A stretch of 42,473 bases of DNA, from positions 1-42,473 of the forward strand of contig JALHOE010000057.1 in the NCBI GenBank assembly GCA_022843175.1, given 5' to 3'. Origin of the DNA: Deltaproteobacteria bacterium. Lineage in GTDB: Bacteria; Myxococcota_A; Polyangia; Polyangiales; JADJMO01. The notes under the pieces are model-generated. The model was not told the origin of the DNA. It saw only the letters and a program-made list of their open reading frames with translations, and did no database searches. The position numbers and the translations under genes are program-made. Within the stretch, counting starts at the first letter, position 1. Each line of letters starts with the position of its first letter. Of this stretch, positions 28,596 through 42,354 are shown piece by piece.

Positions 28596-31055
28596 TCATG
28601 CACGAATCCGCTTGTTCTCGGGATCGTAGAGCGGCCGCAGCGACGCGACGGCGGGGTAGCGCTTGTCGGCGATCTCGACGTCCCACGAGCCGGCGTCGAG
28701 GAACGCCTGATCGATCCGCACGTCGGCCTCGATCATCGCGAGGCCGACCGCGCCGCCGAGCGTGAACCCATAGGACGCGGCGCGCACGTAGCCCACCGGC
28801 TTGCCGTTTCTCCGGACGACCTCGGCGTGAAAGAGGAGCGGCTCGGGATCCTTGCACAGCACCTGCACGAGCCGCTTCTTCAGCGGGCCCGCGCTCTTCT
28901 TGGCGAGCACCGCCTCTTTGCCGACGAAGCCGCCCGGCTTCTCGAGGTCGACGGCGAAGCCGAGGCCGGCCTCGAGCACCGAGTCGGTGTTGTCGATGTC
29001 GTGCCCGTAGTCGCGGTAGCCCTTCTCCATGCGGCAGCTCGCGAGCGTTTTGAGCCCCGCGTGACGCACGCCGAGCGCCGCGCCGGCCCGGACGAGGCGG
29101 TCGTGGACGTGCGTGGCCTGCTCGGTGGGGATGTAGAGCTCGTAGCCGAGCTCGCCGAGGTAGGTGATGCGCACGCACAGCACGCGGGCGAAGCCGATAT
29201 CGATCTCGCGCGCCGCGCGGAAGGGGAACGCCTCGTTCGACATGTCGGCGTGGGTGACGGCCTGCATCAGCGCGCGCGACCGCGGACCCTGCACGTTGAG
29301 CTGCGCGTACCCGCTCGTGACGTCGGCGACGAACGCGTGTGCGTCGCCGAAGTGCCGCCGCATGAGCGTCTCGACGTGCCGATGCGCGGTGTCCGAGGCG
29401 ACGACCTGGAAGCGGTCGTCTCCGAGCTTGGTCACCGTGAGGTCGGCCTCGAGCGTGCCGCCCTCGTTGAGCCACTGGGTGTAGGTGATGACGCCGCTCG
29501 CGCCGTCGACGTTGTTCGCGGAGAGCGTGTTGAGGAGGCGCCCTGCGTCGCGGCCCTGCACGAGGAACTTCGCCATGAACGACATGTCCATCAGCACGAC
29601 GCCCTCGCGCGTCGCCCGGTGCTCGGCCTCCCAGTACGGCCAGAAGCTCGGGCGGCCCCAGCTGAGCGCCTCGACCCGCGGCTCGACGCCCGGCGGCGCG
29701 TACCAATCTGCGCCCTCCCAGCCGCTGACGTCCTTGAAGTACGCGCGCTCCGCCGCGAGCCGCTCGTGGAGCGCCGACTTCTTCGCCCCGCGCGCCGTGG
29801 TCATGGAGCGGAACGGGTAGTGGCACTGGTAGACCATGCCGAGCGATTCGACCGTGCGCGTCCGGCGATACTCCGGGTTCGCCTGGTAGGGGTGGAGCCG
29901 GTCGATGTGCATGCCCGTCACGTCGACGTCCGGGCGGCCGTTGACGATCCAGTGCGCGAGCACGCGACCGAGGCCGCCGCCGGTGAGGATGCCGATCGAG
30001 TTGAGGCCGGCGGCGACGAAGTAATTGCGCACCTCGGGCGACTCGCCGACGACGGGCGCAAGGTCGGGCGTGAAGCTCTCGGGGCCGCAGAAGAACTTCT
30101 TCACCCCGACCTCGAGCGACGCGGGCACGCGGGACATCGCGCGCTCGAGGTACGGCGTCATCCGATCCCAGTCCGGCGGGATCTCGCCGAAGGAGAAGTC
30201 TCCGGGCACGCCGTCGATCTTCCACGGCGCGCACACCGGCTCGAAGAGCCCGATCATCAGGCAGCCGCCGCCCTCTTCGCGGTAATACCCGTGGCAGCCG
30301 GGATCCTCGATCACCGGCCACGACTGCGACAGGCCGGGGATGCGGTCGGTGATGAGGTAGTAGTGCTCGGCGGCCTGGTTGGGGATGACGACCCCCGACC
30401 TCTCGCCCAGTTGTCGCGCCCACATGCCGGCGCAGTTGACGACGTATTCGCACTCGATATCGCCCGCGGTCGTGCGCACCCCGGCGACGGCGCCCCGCTT
30501 GATGATGACGTCGGTGACCGCGACGTTCTCGACGACGCGGGCGCCCTTCAGGCGGGCGCCCTTGGCGAGCGCCATCGTCACGTCGACGGGGTTCACGCGC
30601 CCGTCCTCCTTCACGTAGAACCCCGCGAGCACGTCGTCGATCCGCGCGAGCGGGAACAGCTCCTTCACCTCGCCGGGCGAGAGCTCGTGCACGTCGACCC
30701 CGCAGTAGCGGTTGAACGCCGACACGCGGCGATACTCCTCGAGCCGGTCGCGATCGGACGCGAGCTCGATGAAGCCGACCGGCATCAGGCCGGTGGCCTG
30801 CCCGGTCTCCGCCTCGAGCCGCGCGTAGAGATCGCGCGTGTATTTGCGCATCTCGGTCGAGGTCTCGGACGTCGAGCCGAAGGTCACCATCAGCCCCGCG
30901 GCGTGCCAGGTGGTGCCGGACGTGACGCGATCGCGCTCGAGGAGCACGGTGTCGACGAGGCCCATGTGGGCGAGGTGATAGGCGACGGAGCAACCGATGA
31001 CGCCGCCGCCGATGACGACGACGCGCGCGCGCGCGGGGAGGACGGGCTGGTTCAC
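28596..31055 (-). CDS. dimethylglycine/sarcosine-dehydrogenase-like FAD enzyme with GcvT domains
   Basis: 819 residues from GTG at 31055. Rossmann motif VVVIGGGVIGCSVAYHLA, then SGTTWHAAGLM, in which His51 is in the position covalently bound to FAD in dimethylglycine and sarcosine dehydrogenases. The first 370 residues are the DAO domain (substrate-side VAAGLNSIGILTGGGLG). About 375-430 is an FAO-M-like region, followed by aminomethyltransferase (GcvT) domains to the C-terminus (DMSFMAKFLVQGRD, LGELGYELYIPTEQ, YVRAASYGFTLGG). Such enzymes oxidatively demethylate N-methyl amines and pass the methyl group to tetrahydrofolate. The substrate may differ, since no betaine or glycine-cleavage genes are here. 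It is divergent from a hybrid histidine kinase, and the gap contains a TGAC-N4-GTCA palindrome. Confidence 0.9.
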   Translation of the reverse strand: MNQPVLPARARVVVIGGGVIGCSVAYHLAHMGLVDTVLLERDRVTSGTTWHAAGLMVTFGSTSETSTEMRKYTRDLYARLEAETGQATGLMPVGFIELASDRDRLEEYRRVSAFNRYCGVDVHELSPGEVKELFPLARIDDVLAGFYVKEDGRVNPVDVTMALAKGARLKGARVVENVAVTDVIIKRGAVAGVRTTAGDIECEYVVNCAGMWARQLGERSGVVIPNQAAEHYYLITDRIPGLSQSWPVIEDPGCHGYYREEGGGCLMIGLFEPVCAPWKIDGVPGDFSFGEIPPDWDRMTPYLERAMSRVPASLEVGVKKFFCGPESFTPDLAPVVGESPEVRNYFVAAGLNSIGILTGGGLGRVLAHWIVNGRPDVDVTGMHIDRLHPYQANPEYRRTRTVESLGMVYQCHYPFRSMTTARGAKKSALHERLAAERAYFKDVSGWEGADWYAPPGVEPRVEALSWGRPSFWPYWEAEHRATREGVVLMDMSFMAKFLVQGRDAGRLLNTLSANNVDGASGVITYTQWLNEGGTLEADLTVTKLGDDRFQVVASDTAHRHVETLMRRHFGDAHAFVADVTSGYAQLNVQGPRSRALMQAVTHADMSNEAFPFRAAREIDIGFARVLCVRITYLGELGYELYIPTEQATHVHDRLVRAGAALGVRHAGLKTLASCRMEKGYRDYGHDIDNTDSVLEAGLGFAVDLEKPGGFVGKEAVLAKKSAGPLKKRLVQVLCKDPEPLLFHAEVVRRNGKPVGYVRAASYGFTLGGAVGLAMIEADVRIDQAFLDAGSWDVEIADKRYPAVASLRPLYDPENKRIRA

Positions 31056-33211: not shown

Positions 33212-33284
33212 AGGCGCGCGCGTAAGCGAGCGCCTACCGGTGCGAAGGGTGCAATCACCGAGGCGCTCGCTGACGCGCGCGCCT
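33212..33284. repeat. 73-bp near-perfect inverted repeat between convergent genes
   Basis: Arms of 24 bp at 33212-33235 and 33261-33284 match in 23 of 24 positions as an inverted repeat; AGGCGCGCGCGT begins the left arm and ends in GAGCGCCT. Inside, CGGTG (33238-33242) pairs with CACCG (33256-33260), so the whole element can fold as one hairpin. Each arm also starts AGGCGC and ends GCGCCT and can fold alone. It overlaps the stop codon of the FAD subunit by 2 bp and starts 27 bp after the zinc-protein stop. Probably a bidirectional terminator or a mobile palindromic (REP/BIME-like) element. Confidence 0.7.
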
Positions 33285-34239
33285 AGGAGGCGCTGAGGCC
33301 CAGCTCGTCGAACGCGTCGCGCACCAGCACCGGCACCATCGCGCGTCGCCAGGCGCGATCGGTCGCGACGTTGTCGAGCGGGCGGAAGGCGTGCTCGGCG
33401 CGCTCGGCGACGCGCTCGACGAAGGCGCGATCGACGCGCTCACCGCGGAGCTCGTCGAGCTTCACCCGGCGCGGCGCCGGCGCGAGCCCGCCCGCGACGA
33501 CCCGCACGGAGGCGCAGCGGTCGCCGTCGAGCGTGATCGCCACGGCGATCCCGAGCAGCGCGAAGTCGATCGCCTGGCGGACGCGGAGCTTGCGGTACGC
33601 GGCGCGCGTGTGGGGGTCGAGCGGCACCGACACGGCGGTGATCAGCTGATCGGGCGCGAGGGAGAGCGGGGTCGCGCCGTTGTTGGAGTAGAGCTGCTCG
33701 AGCGCGATGGTTCGTGCGCCGCTCGGGGAGGCGACGTCGATCGTCGCGTCGAGCGCGACCAGCACCGGCGGCAGATCCGCAGCCGACGCCGCGACGCAGC
33801 TCTTGCCGCCCTCGACCACGTGGCAGACCGCGCCCGCGGTCTTGATGCAGAACCCGTTGGCGCCGCGCCAGAGCTCGCTCTGGTTCACGTACACGCAGCG
33901 CGTGTCGAGGCAGAGGTTGCCCCCGACGGTCGCGGTGTTGCGGATCTGCGGCGAGGCGATCATCGCTGCCGCCCGCGACAGCGCGCTCACCGTCGGATCG
34001 CGGGCGAGGCGCGCGAGCGTCACCCGAGCGCCGATGTGGAGCGCGTTGCCGCGCGCTTCGAGCCCGTCGAGGCCGGCGAGGCGCGCGAGCGACACCAGCA
34101 CTCGCGCCCGCGACACGCCGCGCGTGAGGTTGGGGACGAGATCGGTGCCGCCGGCGATGAGGCGCGCGCCCTCGGCGGACAGCGCCTCGAGCGCCTGCTC
34201 CACCGTCTCCGGGAACACGACGTCGCATTCGGGCAGCAT
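33283..34239 (-). CDS. molybdenum hydroxylase FAD subunit, 4-hydroxybenzoyl-CoA-reductase beta type
   Basis: 318 residues from ATG at 34239. FAD-binding motifs of the CO dehydrogenase/xanthine dehydrogenase medium subunit: LIAGGTDLVPNL and TATVGGNLCLD. Between them and the next domain lies a loop with Cys115, Cys131, Cys139 and Cys148, spacing x15-x7-x8, which is exactly that of Cys122/138/146/155, the [4Fe-4S] ligands of the 4-hydroxybenzoyl-CoA reductase beta subunit, all shifted by seven (established knowledge of that structure, recalled). Ordinary xanthine-dehydrogenase-type FAD subunits lack it. The extra cluster lets electrons flow towards reduction of the aromatic thioester. Last of three overlapping genes, TGATG junction with the large subunit. 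Confidence 0.88.
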   Translation of the reverse strand: MLPECDVVFPETVEQALEALSAEGARLIAGGTDLVPNLTRGVSRARVLVSLARLAGLDGLEARGNALHIGARVTLARLARDPTVSALSRAAAMIASPQIRNTATVGGNLCLDTRCVYVNQSELWRGANGFCIKTAGAVCHVVEGGKSCVAASAADLPPVLVALDATIDVASPSGARTIALEQLYSNNGATPLSLAPDQLITAVSVPLDPHTRAAYRKLRVRQAIDFALLGIAVAITLDGDRCASVRVVAGGLAPAPRRVKLDELRGERVDRAFVERVAERAEHAFRPLDNVATDRAWRRAMVPVLVRDAFDELGLSAS

Positions 34240-36395
34240 CAGCTCTTCCTCCCTTTCAACGCGGCGAGCACCCGCTCGGGGGAGAAGGGCAGCGCGCGGA
34301 GCCGCACGCCGACGGCGTCGTAGATGGCGTTGGCGATCGCGGGGATGCTCGGGTGGAGCGGCCCCTCGCCGGCCTCCTTCGCTCCGTGGGGGCCGGCGGG
34401 ATCGGGGCACTCGACGATCAGCGCCTCGAGCTCGGGCGAGTCGAGCGTCGTGGCGAGCTTGTAGTCGAGCAGGTTGGGCCCGCGATGAACGCCGTTGGCG
34501 TGGAACGCGTGGGACTCGAACAGGGCTTCGCCGAAGCCCATCGCCGCCGAGCCCTCCATCTGCCCGGCGACGGCCGTCCGGTTGATCGCGCGGCCGCAGT
34601 CGTGGGCGACCCAGATCTTCGTCACGTGGACGAACCCGGTGCGCGCGTCGACCTCGACCTCGGCGACGTGCGCGGTGAACGAGTAGGCGGGCGAGGCGCC
34701 GATGCTGCCGCCGCGGTAGTCGCCGCCGAGCTTCTTCGTGCGGTAGCCGCCGACGCCGACCAGGGTGCCGAACTTCGCCTCGGCGCGCTGCACCGCGCCC
34801 GCGAAGTCGGAGCCGATGTCGCCGAGGCGCTCCTTGAGCGACGCGCACGCCTCGATCGCGGCGTTGCCCGCCATCATCGTCACGCGGCTCGAGTACGCGC
34901 CGAGATCGACCGGACAGAGCTCGGTGTCGCCGCTGTGAACACGGATCGCGTCGAGCGAGCACCCGAGCTCCTTGGCCACGATCCTCGCGAGCATCGCGTC
35001 GGCGCCCTGGCCGATGTCGGACACGCCGGAGGTGATCACCACCTGGCCCGAGCGATCGAGCTTCACGATCACCGCCGACTGCGGCATCTCGTTCGGGTAG
35101 ATCGGGTACGCGGTGCCCGAGATGTACGTGCTCCCCGCCACGCCGACCCCGCGGCCGAAGGGCAGCTTGCGGAACTTCTCGCGCCAGCCCGACGCCCGCT
35201 CGACCGCGTCGAGACACTCGCGGAACCCGTTGGAGCCGATCGCCTGCCCGTTGATGGTGGTGACCTCGCTGCCGAGCGCGTTGCGACGCCGGAGCTCGAT
35301 CGGATCGAGCTCGAGGCAGTCGGCGAGCTCGTCGAGCTGACACTCGAACGCGAAGCGGGGCTGCACCGAGCCGTGACCGCGCTTCGGCCCGCACGCGGGC
35401 TTGTTGGTGAACACCCGGGTGGCGTTGAACGCGTACGCCGGCAGGTGATACGGCGCGGCGAGCAGCTGTCCGCTGTAGTAGGTGGTGACCACGCCGAACG
35501 AGCTGCGCGCGCCGCCGTCGATGAGCAGCTTCGACTGCACGGCGAGGAGCTTCCCGTCGCGCGCTGCGGCGGTGCGAAACCGCATCTTCATCGCGTGACG
35601 CCCGCGGTGCGCGTAGAACACCTCTTCGCGCGAGTAGCGGATCTTCACCGGTCGTCGCGCGAGCAGGGCCAGCTTCGCCGCGCACAGCTCGAGGTCGAAC
35701 GGCTCGGACTTCCCGCCGAACCCGCCGCCGACGGCCGGTTGAATGACGCGGATGCGCTCGGCGCCGAGGCCGAGCACCTTGGCGAGCGCGCGGTGGAGGT
35801 AGTGGGGGACCTGGGTCGACGAGTAGAGGGTGAGGTTGCCGTCGAAGTCGGCGTCGCCGATCGCGCAGTGCGGCTCGAGCGCCGCGTGGGTGTTGCTCTC
35901 GAAGCGATACTCCTCCTCGATTACGACGTCGGCGTTGGCGAAGGCGCCCTCCACGTCGCCGAACGAGAGGTCGACGTGCTTGCTGACGTTGCCCTCGCGC
36001 GCCGAGGGGTTGACCTTGATCTCGGGGTGGGCGAGCGCCTCCTCGGGATCGAGCACCGCCGGCAGCACCTCGTAGTCGACGGCGATCGCCGCGAGGCCTG
36101 CGCGCGCGCTCGGCTCGTCGATCGCGGCGAGCGCGGCGACGCCCTCGCCCACGTAGGACGTCTGCTCGAGCGCGAGGGCGTGCTCGTCCTCGGTCCAGGG
36201 GAGGATCCCGTACTTCGTCTCCAGATCGCGACCGGTGATCACCGCGAGCACCCCCGGCGTCGCGAGCGCACGCGAGACGTCGATCGCGCGGATGCGCGCG
36301 CGGGCGTGCGGCGCGCGGAGGATCCGCCCGCACGCCATGCGCGGCAGGACGATGTCGTCGGTGTAGCGCGCGGCGCCGGTGACCTTCGCGCTCAT
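34239..36395 (-). CDS. molybdenum hydroxylase large (molybdopterin) subunit
   Basis: 718 residues from ATG at 36395, which overlaps the TGA of the small subunit (ATGA). Starts with [17 protein letters not shown], the aldehyde-oxidase/xanthine-dehydrogenase a/b hammerhead, then the molybdopterin-contacting [15 protein letters not shown] and [11 protein letters not shown]-terminal [15 protein letters not shown] carries the active-site Glu of the family (GEGP). It is about 60 residues shorter than xanthine dehydrogenase. With a FAD subunit of the 4-hydroxybenzoyl-CoA reductase type and a 2x[2Fe-2S] small subunit, it likely acts on a CoA thioester or similar aromatic/heterocyclic substrate. Oxygenation direction is not known from the sequence. 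Molybdenum cofactor insertion proteins are not encoded in the window. Confidence 0.9.
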
Positions 36396-36865
36396 GTTCG
36401 CATCCGCTTGGCCGCGAGCTGCACCGCGTCGACGATGCGGCCATAGCCGGTGCAGCGGCAGAGGTTGCCGGAGAGCGCGAGGCGCACCTCCTCGCGCGAG
36501 GGCTCGCGGTTGCGCGCGAGCAGCGCCTTGGCCGACAGCACCATGCCGGGGGTGCAGAACCCGCACTGCACCGCGCCCTGCTCCTCGAACGCGCGCTGGA
36601 CGGGGTGGAGCTCGCCGTCGGTCGAGACGCCCTCGATGGTGGTGATCGCGCGGCCCTCGACCGCGAGCGCGAGCGTGAGGCACGAGAGCACCGGTTCGCC
36701 GTCGACCAGCACGGTGCAGGCCCCGCACTCGCCGCCATCGCACCCACGCTTGCTGCCGGTGAGGCCGAGATCCTCGCGCAGCACCTCGAGGAGCGTCGCC
36801 GCGGGCGCGATCGCCCGCTCGTGCCGCTCTCCGTTAACCGTCAGGACGCAGAGACGGCGGCGCAT
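36392..36865 (-). CDS. molybdenum hydroxylase small [2Fe-2S] subunit
   Basis: 157 residues from ATG at 36865. Plant-type ferredoxin cluster: Cys42, 47, 50 and 62 ([18 protein letters not shown]). Second cluster in the helical domain: Cys101, 104 (QCGFCTPGM), 136 and 138 ([10 protein letters not shown]). These are the two [2Fe-2S] centres of the CO dehydrogenase/4-hydroxybenzoyl-CoA reductase small subunits, passing electrons between molybdenum and FAD. First gene of the three-gene operon (small-large-FAD); divergent from the synthase-like gene at 36950, and a TGAC-N4-GTCA palindrome sits between the two. Confidence 0.93.
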
Positions 36866-36949: not shown

Positions 36950-37876
36950 GTGAGCTGGGACTGGAACGACGCGAAGCGCTCGAGCGAGCCGAAGAGCGTG
37001 CAGGACGAGACCCTGCGCGACGGGCTGCAGAGCCCATCCGTGACCGATCCGAGCACCGCCGAGAAGATCGAGCTGCTGCACGCCATGGAGGCGATCGGGA
37101 TCGACGTGGTCAACGTGGGCCTCCCGGCCGCCTCTCCGCGCAACCGCGACGACGTGCGAGCCCTCTGCTCGGAGATCGTCCGCGCCAAGCTGCGCGTGCG
37201 CCCGGCGGCGGCGGGGCGCACGGTCGTGTCCGATCTCGTGCCGATCGTCGAGGCGTCGCAGGCGTGCGGGATCGCGATCGAGGTGTGCACGTTCATCGGC
37301 AGCTCGCCGATCCGCAAGCTCGCCGAGGACTGGAGCCTCGAGCGCATCCTCCGCCAGAGCGCGGAGGCGATCGCGTTCGCAGCGCGCGAGGGCCTCGAGG
37401 TCTGCTACGTGATGGAGGACACCACCCGCTCGCGGCCGGAGGATCTCGTCGCGCTCTACCGCAACGCCCTCGATCACGGCGCGCGTAGGCTGTGCCTCGC
37501 CGACACCGTCGGTCACGCGACGCCCGACGGCGTGCGCGCGCTCATCGCCTTCACCCGCGGGGTGATCGAAGAGCACGGCTACACCAACGTCGGCCTCGAC
37601 TGGCACGGCCACAACGACCGCGGCCTCTGCCTCCTCAACTCACTGGTCGCGCTCGAGGCCTCGGCCGATCGCGTGCACGGGTGCGCGCAGGGCATCGGCG
37701 AGCGCTCGGGCAACGCGCGCATCGAGCACCTGCTCATGAACCTCCGGCCAGAGGTCGACGAGGCCGCGCTCGCGCGCTACTCGTCCATCGCGCTCCGCGT
37801 GCTCCGCTGGGACCCGGGCGCGGCGAGGTACCCGGCGATCGCCGAGGCCGCCACGACGATCGGGCTCGCGAGGTAG
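36950..37876 (+). CDS. isopropylmalate/homocitrate-synthase-like DRE-TIM metallolyase
   Basis: 308 residues from GTG at 36950. Motifs: DETLRDGLQ (metal and catalytic Asp, residues 19-27), the metal-binding His219/His221/Asn222 (WHGHNDRG) and GIGERSGN at 248-255. The last motif is that of isopropylmalate and homocitrate synthases, not of HMG-CoA lyase. The regulatory LeuA domain is missing, so the enzyme is probably not feedback-inhibited. It would condense an acyl-CoA with a 2-oxo acid, or run the reverse. Its 3' end overlaps the converging dehydratase gene by 100 bp, tail to tail. Divergent from the hydroxylase operon. Confidence 0.85.
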   Translation: MSWDWNDAKRSSEPKSVQDETLRDGLQSPSVTDPSTAEKIELLHAMEAIGIDVVNVGLPAASPRNRDDVRALCSEIVRAKLRVRPAAAGRTVVSDLVPIVEASQACGIAIEVCTFIGSSPIRKLAEDWSLERILRQSAEAIAFAAREGLEVCYVMEDTTRSRPEDLVALYRNALDHGARRLCLADTVGHATPDGVRALIAFTRGVIEEHGYTNVGLDWHGHNDRGLCLLNSLVALEASADRVHGCAQGIGERSGNARIEHLLMNLRPEVDEAALARYSSIALRVLRWDPGAARYPAIAEAATTIGLAR

Positions 37877-39675
37877 ACCGAGCCGGGCCCGCTTCGTCCG
37901 GGGAAGTTGCGGTTGATCGCGCTGACCGTGACCTGCTCGCGCCGCTCGCTGATGCCGGGGCCGGCGTGGATGCACGCGCCGCACGAGGGCTCGAGCAGCA
38001 GAGCGCCCGCGTCGCGGAAGATCTCGACGTACCCGCGCGACTCGGCGTAACGCCGGACGTCCGCGGAGCCGAACTGGATGAACAGCTGCACGCCGGGGGC
38101 GACGCGTTGGCCGCGGAGGGTGCGCGCGTACATGTCCATGTCGGCGCGCTTTCCGCCGGTGCACGACCCGCCGTACGCGATGTCGATCTTCACCGGCTCG
38201 ACCTCGCGGAGGGGACGTCCGCGCCGCGGATCGCCGGGCAGGGCGACCATCGGCTCGACACGGGAGAGGTCGAGCGCGATGCGCGCGCCGTAGTGCGCGT
38301 CGTGGTCGGGCATCGTCACGCCCTCGAACACGGCGGTCATCGCGCCCGCCTCGACCGCCATGTTCGCGATCGTCGCGCGCTCGTCGATCGACAGCCCGGC
38401 GAGCCCGGGGCCGCCGAGCTCGAGCACCTTGCCGATGGCCTGTCGATCGCGCACGAGCGGGAGCGAGAGGAGGTGGAGCACCGCGTCCTTCGCCGTGCAG
38501 TCGCGCGCGAGCGAACCCGCGAGGTCGATGCGCACCGTCTCCGGCACCCGCACGCGGACGTCCCTCGTCGTCCACGCCACGGCCATGTCGCTCGCGCCCA
38601 CCCCGAAGGCGAACGCGCCGGCCGCGCCCGCGGTGCAGGTGTGGCTGTCGGTGCCGATGATGAGCTGCCCCGGACGCGCGAGCTCGTCCATCACGACGTT
38701 GTGGCAGATGCCGTAGCCGTCCCCGAACAAGCGCACCCCCTGCTCGGCGGCGAAGTGCGCCTGCACGTCGGCGAGCCCCTCGGCGTGCTCGAGGAGGCCA
38801 AGCCGCCGGTGCTCCTCGGGCATCACCCGCGGCAGGTAGGTGAGGTGATCGCGGAACATATAAACACTCGATGGTTCGACGATCCGCGCGTCGTCCCCGA
38901 ACCCGCGGTGGAACAGCGCGCGAGCCATCGCGGTGACGTAGTCGTGCGAGAAGCGAACGTCCGCGCGGACGAACGTCGAGTCGCCCGGCTTGACCGCGGG
39001 GACCCCGATCGACCTGCTCATCGGATCGGTGACGACGTGCGCGGCGAGGATCTTCTCGGCGATCGTCATCGGCCGCGGCGCGGTGTCGATCGCAGGGGGC
39101 CGGACGTGGCCCGACAGGCGCTCGCGCGCGTAGCCGAAGAGGCCGCCGTGCTCGGTGATCGCGGCGCTGATCGGATCGAGCCCGCGGGTCAGCTCCTCGA
39201 GCGGGATCGACGCACCGGCGAGCAGGCGCGGGAGGACGTCGAAGTCGGTCGTGGTGAGCAGCCCGACGTTCTGGCAGTTCTGCTGGTAGATCTTCTCGAA
39301 GCTCCGAGCGACGACGAGGCGAAACCCCGCGCACAGCTCGGCGAACGGTGCGGTCTCGCGCGACGAGCCGCAGCCCTTCGACCCGCCGGCCACGAGCACG
39401 TCGAAGCCGCCGTTGCGCAGCGCATCGGGCTTGATCGCGCCGCCGCGCAGCCCGACGAGGCAATAGCGACCGAGCGTCTCGTCGTAGTAGTAGCAAGTCC
39501 ACGCCGGCGTGATCTCGTCGGTCGAGATGTTGTCGATGAGCCCGCGAGCCGGGTCGTACGGCAGGTCTCTACCGTTGAGCTGCGCCTCGAGCAGCGCGGG
39601 ATCTTCGGTGAGAAACAGGATCCTGCCGCGCAGCGTGAGGGCTCGCTCCATCGCGGGAGCATGGGGGGCAAACAC
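37777..39675 (-). CDS. fused aconitase/isopropylmalate-dehydratase-like enzyme, swivel domain first
   Basis: 632 residues from GTG at 39675, with AGGAG at good distance (39686-39682); ATG at 39651 lacks one. Residues about 15-165 are the swivel (LeuD-like) domain with LIDNISTDEITPAW and the substrate loop GGSKGCGSSRETAP. Residues about 205-615 are the LeuC/aconitase core: GTDSHTCTAG with iron-sulfur Cys347, and CGACIHAGPG with two further cluster cysteines. The order is the reverse of aconitase A and of separate leuC-leuD. It ends VYLASPIVVAASAIAGYL plus a short tail, antisense to the synthase-like gene. Expected to isomerise a hydroxyacid by dehydration/rehydration; partner of the synthase-like enzyme by context. 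Confidence 0.87.
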   Translation of the reverse strand: MFAPHAPAMERALTLRGRILFLTEDPALLEAQLNGRDLPYDPARGLIDNISTDEITPAWTCYYYDETLGRYCLVGLRGGAIKPDALRNGGFDVLVAGGSKGCGSSRETAPFAELCAGFRLVVARSFEKIYQQNCQNVGLLTTTDFDVLPRLLAGASIPLEELTRGLDPISAAITEHGGLFGYARERLSGHVRPPAIDTAPRPMTIAEKILAAHVVTDPMSRSIGVPAVKPGDSTFVRADVRFSHDYVTAMARALFHRGFGDDARIVEPSSVYMFRDHLTYLPRVMPEEHRRLGLLEHAEGLADVQAHFAAEQGVRLFGDGYGICHNVVMDELARPGQLIIGTDSHTCTAGAAGAFAFGVGASDMAVAWTTRDVRVRVPETVRIDLAGSLARDCTAKDAVLHLLSLPLVRDRQAIGKVLELGGPGLAGLSIDERATIANMAVEAGAMTAVFEGVTMPDHDAHYGARIALDLSRVEPMVALPGDPRRGRPLREVEPVKIDIAYGGSCTGGKRADMDMYARTLRGQRVAPGVQLFIQFGSADVRRYAESRGYVEIFRDAGALLLEPSCGACIHAGPGISERREQVTVSAINRNFPGRSGPGSVYLASPIVVAASAIAGYLAAPGSQRSTRSAMDE

Positions 39676-39816: not shown

Positions 39817-42105
39817 CTAAAACCCATGGGCCGCTTGCGCGACGAACCTCGCGCGTTCGGCCGGCGTGATGAGCGCGAGCGTTACTGCCTCCCTTGCGGC
39901 GTGCGTGACGCACGCCACGTATTGGCCGGGCTGAACGAAGCCCTCTCGCGTGCAGCGAAGCGCGATGAGCTGTGCGCCAGAGCATCCTTGTGCGTCGACG
40001 GCGAGGCCGGTTGCTGTCGCTGCGCACCGATCACTCACGTTGGCGATGCCGTCGCCGTCGATGTCGGTGTCGCATGCGTCGCCGGTGCCGTCGTCATCGA
40101 CGTCGGCCTGGCTTGCGTTCGCGACGTTGACGCAGTTGTCGGTCGTGTTGGCAACGCCGTCGCCGTCGACGTCGGGATCGCAGATGTCGCCCAGTCCGTC
40201 GCCGTCCCCGTCGGCCTGGTCGATGTTCGCGACGCTGCGACAGTTGTCGGTGGTGTCGGCGACGCCGTCGTTGTCGTCGTCCGAATTACAGATGTCGCCG
40301 ATGCCATCGCCGTCGAGATCGCTCTGCGCGCCGTTGGGGACGGTCGGGCAGTTGTCCGCCGTGTTGGCGACACCGTCGTCGTCGAGATCGGGATCGCAGG
40401 CGTCGCCGACCGTGTCGCCGTCAACGTCGATCTGGTCGGCATTCGCGATGGCAGCGCAGTTGTCGTTCTCGTCGGGGACTCCGTCGCCATCGCGATCGGG
40501 TTTGCCGCAGCCAAGCGAGAAGGTTACGCCGCTCGCCACGAGGGTGGGCGGGCTCACAGCGCACGGGTGGGTGACGTTGAAACCGACCGATGGCCCCATT
40601 GCCGCGGTGCCCATCACGTAAGAGGCGCTGGGGACCAGCGTCACTGTCTGTCTCCCGCTGAACTCGGGGAAGCCTGCGAGAATCCACCGCAAAACCTCGC
40701 TCCCTGGATCGATGCTGATGGTCTCGTTCGCCAGCGTGACCCGCGAGCCGGACGTAGTGCCCGAGATGCCGTTGTCGACGGAGACGTTTCCGTTCGCTGC
40801 GACGGTGACGGAAACAGTGCCGAAGTTGCCGACGCCCCCGACCTGCAGGAGGTAGTTGGTGCCGGGGACCACCGTGGCCGACTGCAGCCCAGTGATCATC
40901 CCGGTGATGCCCCACAGCCTCCAGGTGCCGCTATACGCCGCGGGATCCACGGTGAGCATAGTGTTGCGAAACGTGAGCGCGTGCAGGCCACCCACGGCCC
41001 ATGCGCTCGTGGGCAGCCATGATCCGTCGATCGGTGTAACGACACCCGCGCCATCGACGCTGAAGAAGACGGAGCCGTGGTTTCCCACTCCTCCGACATG
41101 CGCGACGTAGTTGGTCCCGGTGACGAGAGTCAACGTCCGCGAACCGGTGGCGACCCCGACGACCTTCTCCACGTTCCACCCGCCGGCGTACGCGGCAGGG
41201 TCCACCGCTACCGTCGTTGTCTTGAACGTGAGGCGACCGGGACCGCCAATCGCGGCGGAGGTGTCCGACGCGCCATTGAGAGCGATGGCGGTGACAGTGC
41301 TGTCTCCCGCTACGGAGAAGAAGACGGACCCGAGGTTTCCGGCCCCGCCCGCATGCGCGACGTATGTGGTGCCGGGCACGAGGGTCAGGCTGCGTGCACC
41401 GGTCGCGAAGCCGACGACCCGCTCCACGTTCCACGCACCCGCAAAGGCAGCCGGGTCGATGGTGACTGTGGTGGTCTTGAACGTAAGACGACCGGCACCG
41501 CCGGTCGCTGCGGAGGAGTCCGCGAACCAAGCCAAGTTGATCGGCGTGACCGTACCGTCGGCCGCGACCGAGAACATGACCGACCCGAAGTTCCCGATGC
41601 CGCCAACGTGGGCGATGTAGTTGGTGCCTGGCACCAATGCCGCCACGCGCGCGCCGGTGCCGAACGGGACGATGCCCTGCACGTCCCACGACCCCAAGTA
41701 CGCCGCCGGATCGATTGTCACCGGCGCCGTCACGAACCGCAGGATGCCGGCACCGCCGGTCGCCGACGTACCGTTGGGCACGGTGACGGAGCCATCGGCC
41801 GCGACGGAGATCTCGAAGAGACCGAAGTTTGCCTGACCTCCGACCCTGACTCGATACGAACTCCCCCCGGACAGCGTGATCGTCCTTCGTCCGGAAGCGT
41901 ATGGCGTGACCGCCGGCCAGCCCTCGATCCCCCATGCGCCGACATACGCGCCGGGGTCGACGTCGATGCTGACCGCCGTAAGCGCGGCGCGCGACACCCC
42001 AAGCGCAGCGCTCTGCTCGCCAGTCGGTGTAGCGCACCCCGCGGCGAGAATGAACAACGCGGCGAACCACGCGCCGCTGCGGGCGCAAAACCAAGGACTC
42101 GACAT
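39817..42105 (-). CDS. large lipoprotein with six novel repeats and thrombospondin type-3 repeats
   Basis: 762 residues from ATG at 42105, behind AAGGAGA. Lipoprotein signal ends FILAAGC with lipidated Cys24. Six tandem units of about 79-86 residues start at about 49, 131, 217, 301, 387 and 466; each starts (V/I)DPxAYxGxW and contains GTNYxxxVGGxGNFGSVxFSV. I do not recognise this repeat. Residues about 537-695 are thrombospondin type-3 calcium-binding repeats (DGDGVPDENDNC, DVDGDGVANTTDNC and similar, with regularly placed cysteines). A C-terminal Cys-containing tail follows (GCSGAQLIALRC, ACVTHAAREA). Likely a surface-exposed adhesin-like or stalk protein. The upstream 249 bp contains no gene. 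Confidence 0.82.
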   Translation of the reverse strand: MSSPWFCARSGAWFAALFILAAGCATPTGEQSAALGVSRAALTAVSIDVDPGAYVGAWGIEGWPAVTPYASGRRTITLSGGSSYRVRVGGQANFGLFEISVAADGSVTVPNGTSATGGAGILRFVTAPVTIDPAAYLGSWDVQGIVPFGTGARVAALVPGTNYIAHVGGIGNFGSVMFSVAADGTVTPINLAWFADSSAATGGAGRLTFKTTTVTIDPAAFAGAWNVERVVGFATGARSLTLVPGTTYVAHAGGAGNLGSVFFSVAGDSTVTAIALNGASDTSAAIGGPGRLTFKTTTVAVDPAAYAGGWNVEKVVGVATGSRTLTLVTGTNYVAHVGGVGNHGSVFFSVDGAGVVTPIDGSWLPTSAWAVGGLHALTFRNTMLTVDPAAYSGTWRLWGITGMITGLQSATVVPGTNYLLQVGGVGNFGTVSVTVAANGNVSVDNGISGTTSGSRVTLANETISIDPGSEVLRWILAGFPEFSGRQTVTLVPSASYVMGTAAMGPSVGFNVTHPCAVSPPTLVASGVTFSLGCGKPDRDGDGVPDENDNCAAIANADQIDVDGDTVGDACDPDLDDDGVANTADNCPTVPNGAQSDLDGDGIGDICNSDDDNDGVADTTDNCRSVANIDQADGDGDGLGDICDPDVDGDGVANTTDNCVNVANASQADVDDDGTGDACDTDIDGDGIANVSDRCAATATGLAVDAQGCSGAQLIALRCTREGFVQPGQYVACVTHAAREAVTLALITPAERARFVAQAAHGF
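40021..40497 (-). repeat. DNA encoding thrombospondin type-3 repeats
   Basis: About five imperfect repeats of roughly 100-110 bp, each encoding a DxDxDG(V/I) calcium loop, an Asn-Cys pair and a further Cys about 20 residues on. The repetition comes from the protein, not from a non-coding element. Confidence 0.75.
40561..41961 (-). repeat. DNA encoding six approximately 80-residue beta repeats
   Basis: Six units of roughly 240-260 bp. Units 2-5 are most alike, with unit 6 the most diverged; this suggests duplication of a central block. Anchors at protein level are DPAAY, GTNYVAHVGG and GRLTFKTTTV. Confidence 0.75.
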
Positions 42106-42354
42106 CGCCTCTCCTTCCGACGTGCATCTCGCGCGTCGGAGTGGGCTCTCAGCAAGAACGCGCCCAGGAGGTTGTCGCCGCTTCGATTCGTTCGATCCGT
42201 GTTTTGGCGGCACGTTTGTTGGTGCTGCGACACGGTGTGACGACACAACTGGTGACCGACCGCGATTCGCGATGCCCTCTTGATGGGGCACGAGAGCAGC
42301 TGATATTGGCGGGTTCGTTCGCTGGATTCAGCCGCTTCGGCCAGAAATCGGCGC
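42106..42354. other. upstream region of repeat lipoprotein, no gene seen
   Basis: 249 bp with lower GC in parts. It must hold the promoter of the lipoprotein gene at 42105. A 9-bp inverted repeat ACAC-G-GTGT near 42225 is visible, but no clear -35/-10 pair. No believable coding frame. Confidence 0.4.

Follow-up and report, generated by a model that had tools for sequence, protein, structure and literature searches.

A truncated synthase-like barrel and a swivel-first isomerase linked to a 4-hydroxybenzoyl-CoA reductase-like molybdenum enzyme in Myxococcota

Results

The stretch of DNA analysed here (42,473 nucleotides, hereafter the window) comes from a soil-type Deltaproteobacteria bacterium with a 9.75-Mb genome; Sandaracinaceae and Polyangium are among its relatives in the genome sets. 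It encodes a short synthase-like protein and a permuted isomerase. Comparison across genomes showed these to be divergent paralogues of enzymes one and two in a leucine-type trio found widely among Myxococcota, often together with a thiolase. The existence of a module made up of this synthase, the isomerase and a molybdenum enzyme resembling 4-hydroxybenzoyl-CoA reductase (HCR) is well supported, and the reaction involved is probably an acetyl-CoA-independent lyase step that feeds the molybdenum enzyme.

Organisation of the locus

The synthase and isomerase genes (Table 1) are convergent with a 100-bp overlap and are therefore not part of one transcript in this genome. The hcrC-hcrA-hcrB genes are divergent from the synthase gene and lie approximately 85 bp upstream of it. 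Elsewhere in the window, positions 28596-31055 encode a DAO and GCV_T fusion similar to proteins of the dimethylglycine dehydrogenase/sarcosine oxidase family, and positions 39817-42291 a secreted-looking protein in which about five repeats centre on VDPAAYxGxW and the tail consists of calcium-binding-type DxDxDG repeats.

Table 1. Genes of the putative module and their positions in the window
Feature	Position	Strand	Remarks
Short (truncated) DRE-TIM synthase-like protein	36950..37876	+	308 aa; GTG start at 36950, stop at 37876
Permuted aconitase/IPM-isomerase-like protein	37777..39675	-	632 aa from GTG; 624 aa from ATG at 39651
hcrC-like [2Fe-2S] subunit	36392..36865	-	Homologue fused to short synthase in Polyangium and two other genomes
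hcrA-like molybdopterin subunit	34239..36395	-	Closest solved structure 1RM6 (4-hydroxybenzoyl-CoA reductase)
hcrB-like FAD subunit	33283..34239	-	Extra [4Fe-4S] cysteines, C-x15-C-x7-C-x8-C

The short synthase ends before the acetyl-CoA-binding region

The window synthase matched the Pfam HMGL-like family with 157.6 bits, while the NCBIfam models for isopropylmalate synthase (IPMS), homocitrate synthase (HCS) and citramalate synthase (CMS) matched it weakly, all far below their cut-offs. The original prediction had described a synthase with a GIGERSGN motif (residues 248-255, approximately positions 37691-37714) and no regulatory domain, which was right but understated, as the protein also ends before the LeuA-type catalytic His of subdomain I and before subdomain II. 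When 18 short synthases, including that of the window, were compared with 101 long relatives, the chain past the GxGERxGN motif consisted of 40-76 residues or an HcrC domain in the short forms and of approximately 141-172 residues in the long ones. The His of the TGVH motif, which aligns with SGIH of LeuA, was found in 100 of the 101 long forms and in none of the 18 short forms. All 18 short forms keep the metal ligands D, H, H and N, as well as the R, GER and the β-5 ED pair, and the Arg, Asp, both His, Asn and GER are invariant in long and short synthases alike. The β-2 Glu of the DRE motif is Asn in the window synthase and is replaced in all family members (N or S in short forms, mostly D or N in long ones), and every member, long or short, has Val at the specificity position that is Ser in IPMS and Thr in HCS.

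An AlphaFold model of the window synthase has a full barrel (mean pLDDT 87), and its closest folds are synthases, with Z scores of about 30-35. The model's alignment with M. tuberculosis LeuA stops at residue 374, before H379 and Y410, and that with the methylthioalkylmalate synthase (MAMS) BjuMAM1.1 at residue 375, before H388 and Y399. On our reading of the alignment, the SGIH motif of LeuA would mark this H379/H388 position. In LeuA, H379, Y410 and GxGERxG line the presumed acetyl-CoA groove (PMC2704214), and among His388 mutants of MAMS only H388N retained activity (PMC11532901). Subdomain II is essential in IPMS according to the title of a paper cited in PMC12961565.

The window protein is like the IPMS, HCS, CMS and MAM synthases in its TIM barrel, D/H/H/N metal ligands, Arg, GIGERxGN motif and β-5 ED pair; unlike them, it stops before the subdomain I His and Tyr and before subdomain II, has Asn/Ser in place of the DRE Glu and Val at the specificity position, and is linked to a molybdenum enzyme. 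With HMG-CoA lyase it shares a length of about 300 aa, an RDGLQ motif and the lack of a lid domain, but it has GIGERSGN in place of the GGCPYAPGAAGN active-site loop and scored only 30.7 bits (cut-off, 246). A protein resembling HMG-CoA lyase and possessing the GGCPYAPGAAGN loop is encoded elsewhere in the same genome, at C159. DmpG, which acts with DmpF, belongs to the same superfamily of metal TIM barrels and is likewise in physical association with an oxidoreductase, and the window model matched it (1nvm) with a Z score of 29.5. The partner of the short synthase is, however, a Mo/FAD/Fe-S enzyme, whereas DmpF is an acylating aldehyde dehydrogenase. The score of the window synthase for the 4-hydroxy-2-oxovalerate aldolase family was 54 bits against a cut-off of 286, and the aldolase-type His of what we take to be the DmpG motif, RDGxH, is absent from it, the window protein having Gln there (RDGxQ).

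A second short synthase, 79% identical, is encoded in the same genome (C109:24786-25625; L044:10760-11638), where it stands alone downstream of apparent rps and rpoA genes. Long and short synthases occur in tandem in an acidobacterium (Terriglobia, L132:8662-10915), adjoining apparent genes for 4-hydroxyphenylpyruvate dioxygenase, homogentisate dioxygenase and SucCD; in the tree, this short form is separate from the rest of the short forms.

The isomerase carries its swivel domain ahead of the core

As predicted, the putative dehydratase places its swivel (residues ~47-143; LEUD_arch, Aconitase_C) in front of its LeuC-like core (residues ~203-620) in a single chain. AcnB also has the swivel ahead of the core, the order seen in the window isomerase, and the AcnB score was 58.5 against 1287 bits, with the match confined to the core. 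The cut-offs of the named LeuC/LeuD, homoaconitase and aconitase models were all missed, the best scores being 311 against 385 and 308 against 612 bits. The likeness to the IPM isomerase/aconitase family lies in the LeuC-like Fe-S core, with its cluster cysteines (GSCT, SCGAC) intact, and the LeuD-like swivel with an intact GCGSSRE motif; the differences are the length of 632 aa, the lack of a HEAT domain and the loss of a helix of about 22 aa, which is missing from the window isomerase and its congener at L047 and kept by the other aligned relatives. Most swivel-first isomerases stand alone, and no steady neighbour of the stand-alone form was found in the loci read within the order. A literature search found no paper on the swivel-first isomerase or on this gene set.

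The molybdenum enzyme and its coupling to the short synthase

The three hcr genes, all on the minus strand, bear out the predicted linkage to a molybdenum hydroxylase, and this linkage was seen to recur in other genomes, even as a gene fusion. The enzyme is like 4-hydroxybenzoyl-CoA reductase (1RM6) in having three subunits, in the closest solved structure of its A and B subunits (HcrA, 566 bits, the next being 276; HcrB, 210 bits, the next being 107) and in the spacing of the [4Fe-4S] cysteine quartet of the FAD subunit, which is the same in 1RM6, the window and most relatives. It differs, however, in that all three subunits fall below the curated HCR equivalog cut-offs of NCBIfam (789/994, 285/405 and 204/258 bits). 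The window HcrA begins about 20 residues downstream of the start seen in its relatives and in 1RM6, and its N-terminus may be shortened. A search of the literature on HCR returned general papers only.

Among loci gathered by similarity to the window, a sampling biased to near relatives, 13 of the 18 short synthases were adjacent or fused to hcr genes, as against 2 of the 101 long forms; with the three Polyangium copies collapsed, the count was 11 of 16 short forms. Most of these relatives are draft or metagenome assemblies, with gene calls from a simple codon-usage script and thresholds set by eye at gaps in the score lists. The short synthase is divergent from hcr in the window and at L047, L175, L176, L178, L180 and L181, and downstream of it at L177. 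It is fused to hcrC in one reading frame at L147, L150 and L155 (Polyangium), L283 and L286. Synthases with a full-length C-terminus lie beside HCR genes at L182 and L137 (hcrB only), and the long synthase of L182 groups with Nannocystaceae long forms in the tree.

Adjacency of the swivel-first isomerase to HCR was limited to four loci, from three families: the window and L047, L176 and L283. The L176 copy comes from a different family than the window and L047 copies, and the isomerase tree places this linked copy (G044) among those of its own family rather than with the window and L047 copies. In the third family (L283), the synthase-hcrC fusion, hcrA, hcrB and the isomerase follow one another on one strand.

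Most of 40 Myxococcota loci with HCR have no short synthase, and in two genomes of the order (G040 and G041) HCR is present and the synthases are long only; the molybdenum enzyme is therefore independent of the short synthase. A MocA-like cytidylyltransferase often comes next after hcrB, and the only functional neighbours of lone HCR loci were this cytidylyltransferase and, in a few, a GNAT protein. A gene similar to succinyl-CoA:acetate CoA-transferase was seen only at L047. In nine Myxococcota HCR-like loci (L248, L261, L270, L271, L275, L277, L278, L281 and L282), the molybdenum and [2Fe-2S] subunits form one reading frame of about 880-980 aa.

A leucine-type trio recurs within the order

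A leucine-type elongation set is present in the source genome, unlinked to the window, as judged from sequence: a 420-aa long synthase at C271 (56% identical to the window synthase), a 651-aa isomerase at C15 (58% identical to the window isomerase) and a LeuB-like dehydrogenase of 356 aa at C105, which falls near NF002898 and tartrate dehydrogenase, below cut-off. The original prediction that a LeuB-type gene was missing therefore held only for the vicinity of the pair, as the genome encodes LeuB and four other Iso_dh proteins, one of which (C105) tracks the synthase-isomerase pair across genomes. With presence set at E <= 1e-60 for the isomerase, E < 1e-70 for the synthase family and more than 400 bits for the dehydrogenase, isomerase and synthase family were found in the identical 37 of the 56 genomes of the order, with neither in the other 19, and the C105-type dehydrogenase in 36 of the 37 pair-bearing genomes and none of the 19 others. 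This shared presence upheld the view that synthase and dehydratase belong together. Across 282 genomes of the phylum, both isomerase and synthase occurred in 109, the isomerase only in 9, the synthase only in 30 and neither in 134; for dehydrogenase and synthase the corresponding numbers were 98, 8, 41 and 135. Such counts ignore relatedness, so that Fisher p values derived from them overstate the case.

Gene order is a line of evidence separate from these counts. The dehydrogenase adjoins the isomerase or synthase in more than 30 Myxococcota genomes. It lies directly 5' of the isomerase on the same strand, at 104-405 bp, in nine genomes (and at 7 kb in one more), and at most 10 kb from the synthase in 24, sharing its strand in 23 of them. 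The commonest gap between dehydrogenase and synthase, approximately 1.3-1.4 kb, would fit one thiolase gene, and a thiolase was found near the synthase in 24 of 90 loci. The order at L131 is isomerase, dehydrogenase, thiolase, synthase, and L117 has a row of long synthase, leuC-like, leuD-like and dehydrogenase genes. At L131, L151, L154 and L156 (and L106 and L126), a long synthase and a thiolase are clustered, most also with the dehydrogenase; the aconitase-family protein at these loci is only about 28-30% identical to the permuted one, and in L131 it has the normal order, core before swivel, within one chain. The HphA-HphCD-HphB homophenylalanine pathway is comparable (PMC12961565): it too is a leucine-type elongation in three steps that uses an isomerase and lies outside leucine biosynthesis, but it has different residues at two substrate positions, the only points compared.

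The original prediction, which found partial support, needs correcting on this point: in this genome a leucine-type elongation is completed by the unlinked C271, C15 and C105 proteins, and the window pair is a diverged duplicate of its first two steps rather than the pathway itself.

The pair is distinct from the leucine, citramalate and citrate genes

Given its distant homology to leuA, nifV and leuCD, the window pair might be nothing other than the standard enzymes of the cell for leucine, lysine, citramalate or citrate, but this is barely credible. A complete row of ilvC, leuA, leuC, leuD, cimA and leuB (assigned by inspecting the sequences, leuB also by an Iso_dh search) lies at C55, on which ground a leucine or citramalate duplication was rejected; this agrees with the earlier view that the pair is distinct from those genes. 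A canonical aconitase is encoded at C81 (960 bits against a cut-off of 612) and citrate synthase in this genome as well as in 55 of the 56 genomes of the order overall, and an alternative citrate-forming branch of the TCA cycle was rejected as a substitute on these grounds. Homocitrate, the one point through which lysine synthesis was assessed, was also rejected, as the carboxylate-binding Arg position of HCS is Cys in the window synthase and never Arg in the family. Every NCBIfam cut-off, moreover, was missed by the window pair.

Discussion

As the short barrel lacks both the acetyl-CoA subdomain and the catalytic His, it is unlikely to condense acetyl-CoA, and its retained metal site and Arg would suit a lyase that splits or decarboxylates a hydroxy or oxo acid. 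Our best explanation, put forward tentatively from sequence and by analogy, is that the diverged isomerase and the truncated barrel act as a hydratase-lyase feeding the HCR-like molybdenum enzyme. The isomerase copy would hydrate or isomerise a hydroxy-polycarboxylate via an unsaturated intermediate. The truncated barrel, with its divalent-metal site and enolate-stabilising Arg, would then act on a hydroxy or oxo acid as an acetyl-CoA-independent lyase, either aldolase- or decarboxylase-like, and hand a carbonyl product to the molybdenum enzyme, which may oxidise it, hydroxylate it or, via its [4Fe-4S] cluster, reduce it. DmpG aldolases pass an aldehyde to DmpF in a similar manner, and it is this analogy, together with the absences from the barrel, that suggests the lyase role. 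The original prediction had considered a different reaction, perhaps a retro-Claisen degradation of a ring-derived acid. A non-synthase reaction does appear likely, because the catalytic His and acetyl-CoA subdomain are lost; with the acetyl-CoA-binding subdomain missing, a CoA-independent lyase is more probable than a CoA-dependent retro-Claisen cleavage, and the ring origin found no support. It is possible, if doubtful, that a hydratase-lyase pair delivering directly to HCR represents an undescribed pathway, and that the parent trio is an unrecognised 2-oxo-acid chain extension of Myxococcota, with relatives of the synthase in several other phyla.

The chief rival, which we consider unlikely, is that the truncated barrel is an inactive paralogue, retained for binding, that serves the molybdenum enzyme as a subunit for structure, maturation or channel formation. 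The loss of the catalytic His, subdomain II and the DRE Glu from all 18 short forms would be explained in this way, as would the fusion of the barrel to the [2Fe-2S] subunit and the occurrence of HCR without the barrel in many genomes. A dead scaffold would, however, have no need of the metal ligands, R, GER and β-5 ED pair that the same 18 proteins have kept. These retained barrel residues and GIGERSGN are also compatible with a short form that is still a Claisen synthase, in which the missing groups come from a partner (an HCR or long-synthase subunit) and a 2-oxo acid, once extended by the pair, is oxidised or reduced by HCR. The synthase-like nearest folds and the tandem of long and short forms in the acidobacterium would fit such an arrangement, but the protein lacks both subdomain II, reported as essential in IPMS in the title of a paper cited in PMC12961565, and the His388-type residue essential in MAMS (PMC11532901), and we regard it as improbable.

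Rather improbable, too, is that the isomerase lies beside the synthase and HCR incidentally, the functional unit being synthase and HCR only. Most swivel-first isomerases are solitary and the window genes are convergent and overlapping, as this would have it; nevertheless, the adjacency is found in three families, in differing orientations and once as one operon, and the isomerase tracks the synthase family in every sampled genome of the order.

The linkage of altered versions of the first two leucine-like enzymes to a molybdenum enzyme points to a metabolic route so far undescribed. The comparison also exposed a complete leucine-like set of three enzymes, retained or lost as a whole, which is easily missed because its genes are spread over the chromosome in this bacterial order. 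In the short forms, nature has in effect run an experiment: a Claisen synthase was deprived of its catalytic lid and came to be coupled to a molybdenum enzyme, in some cases by gene fusion. Each of the two would provide a testable new function for genes which, on sequence similarity alone, would be annotated as isopropylmalate synthase, aconitase and xanthine dehydrogenase.
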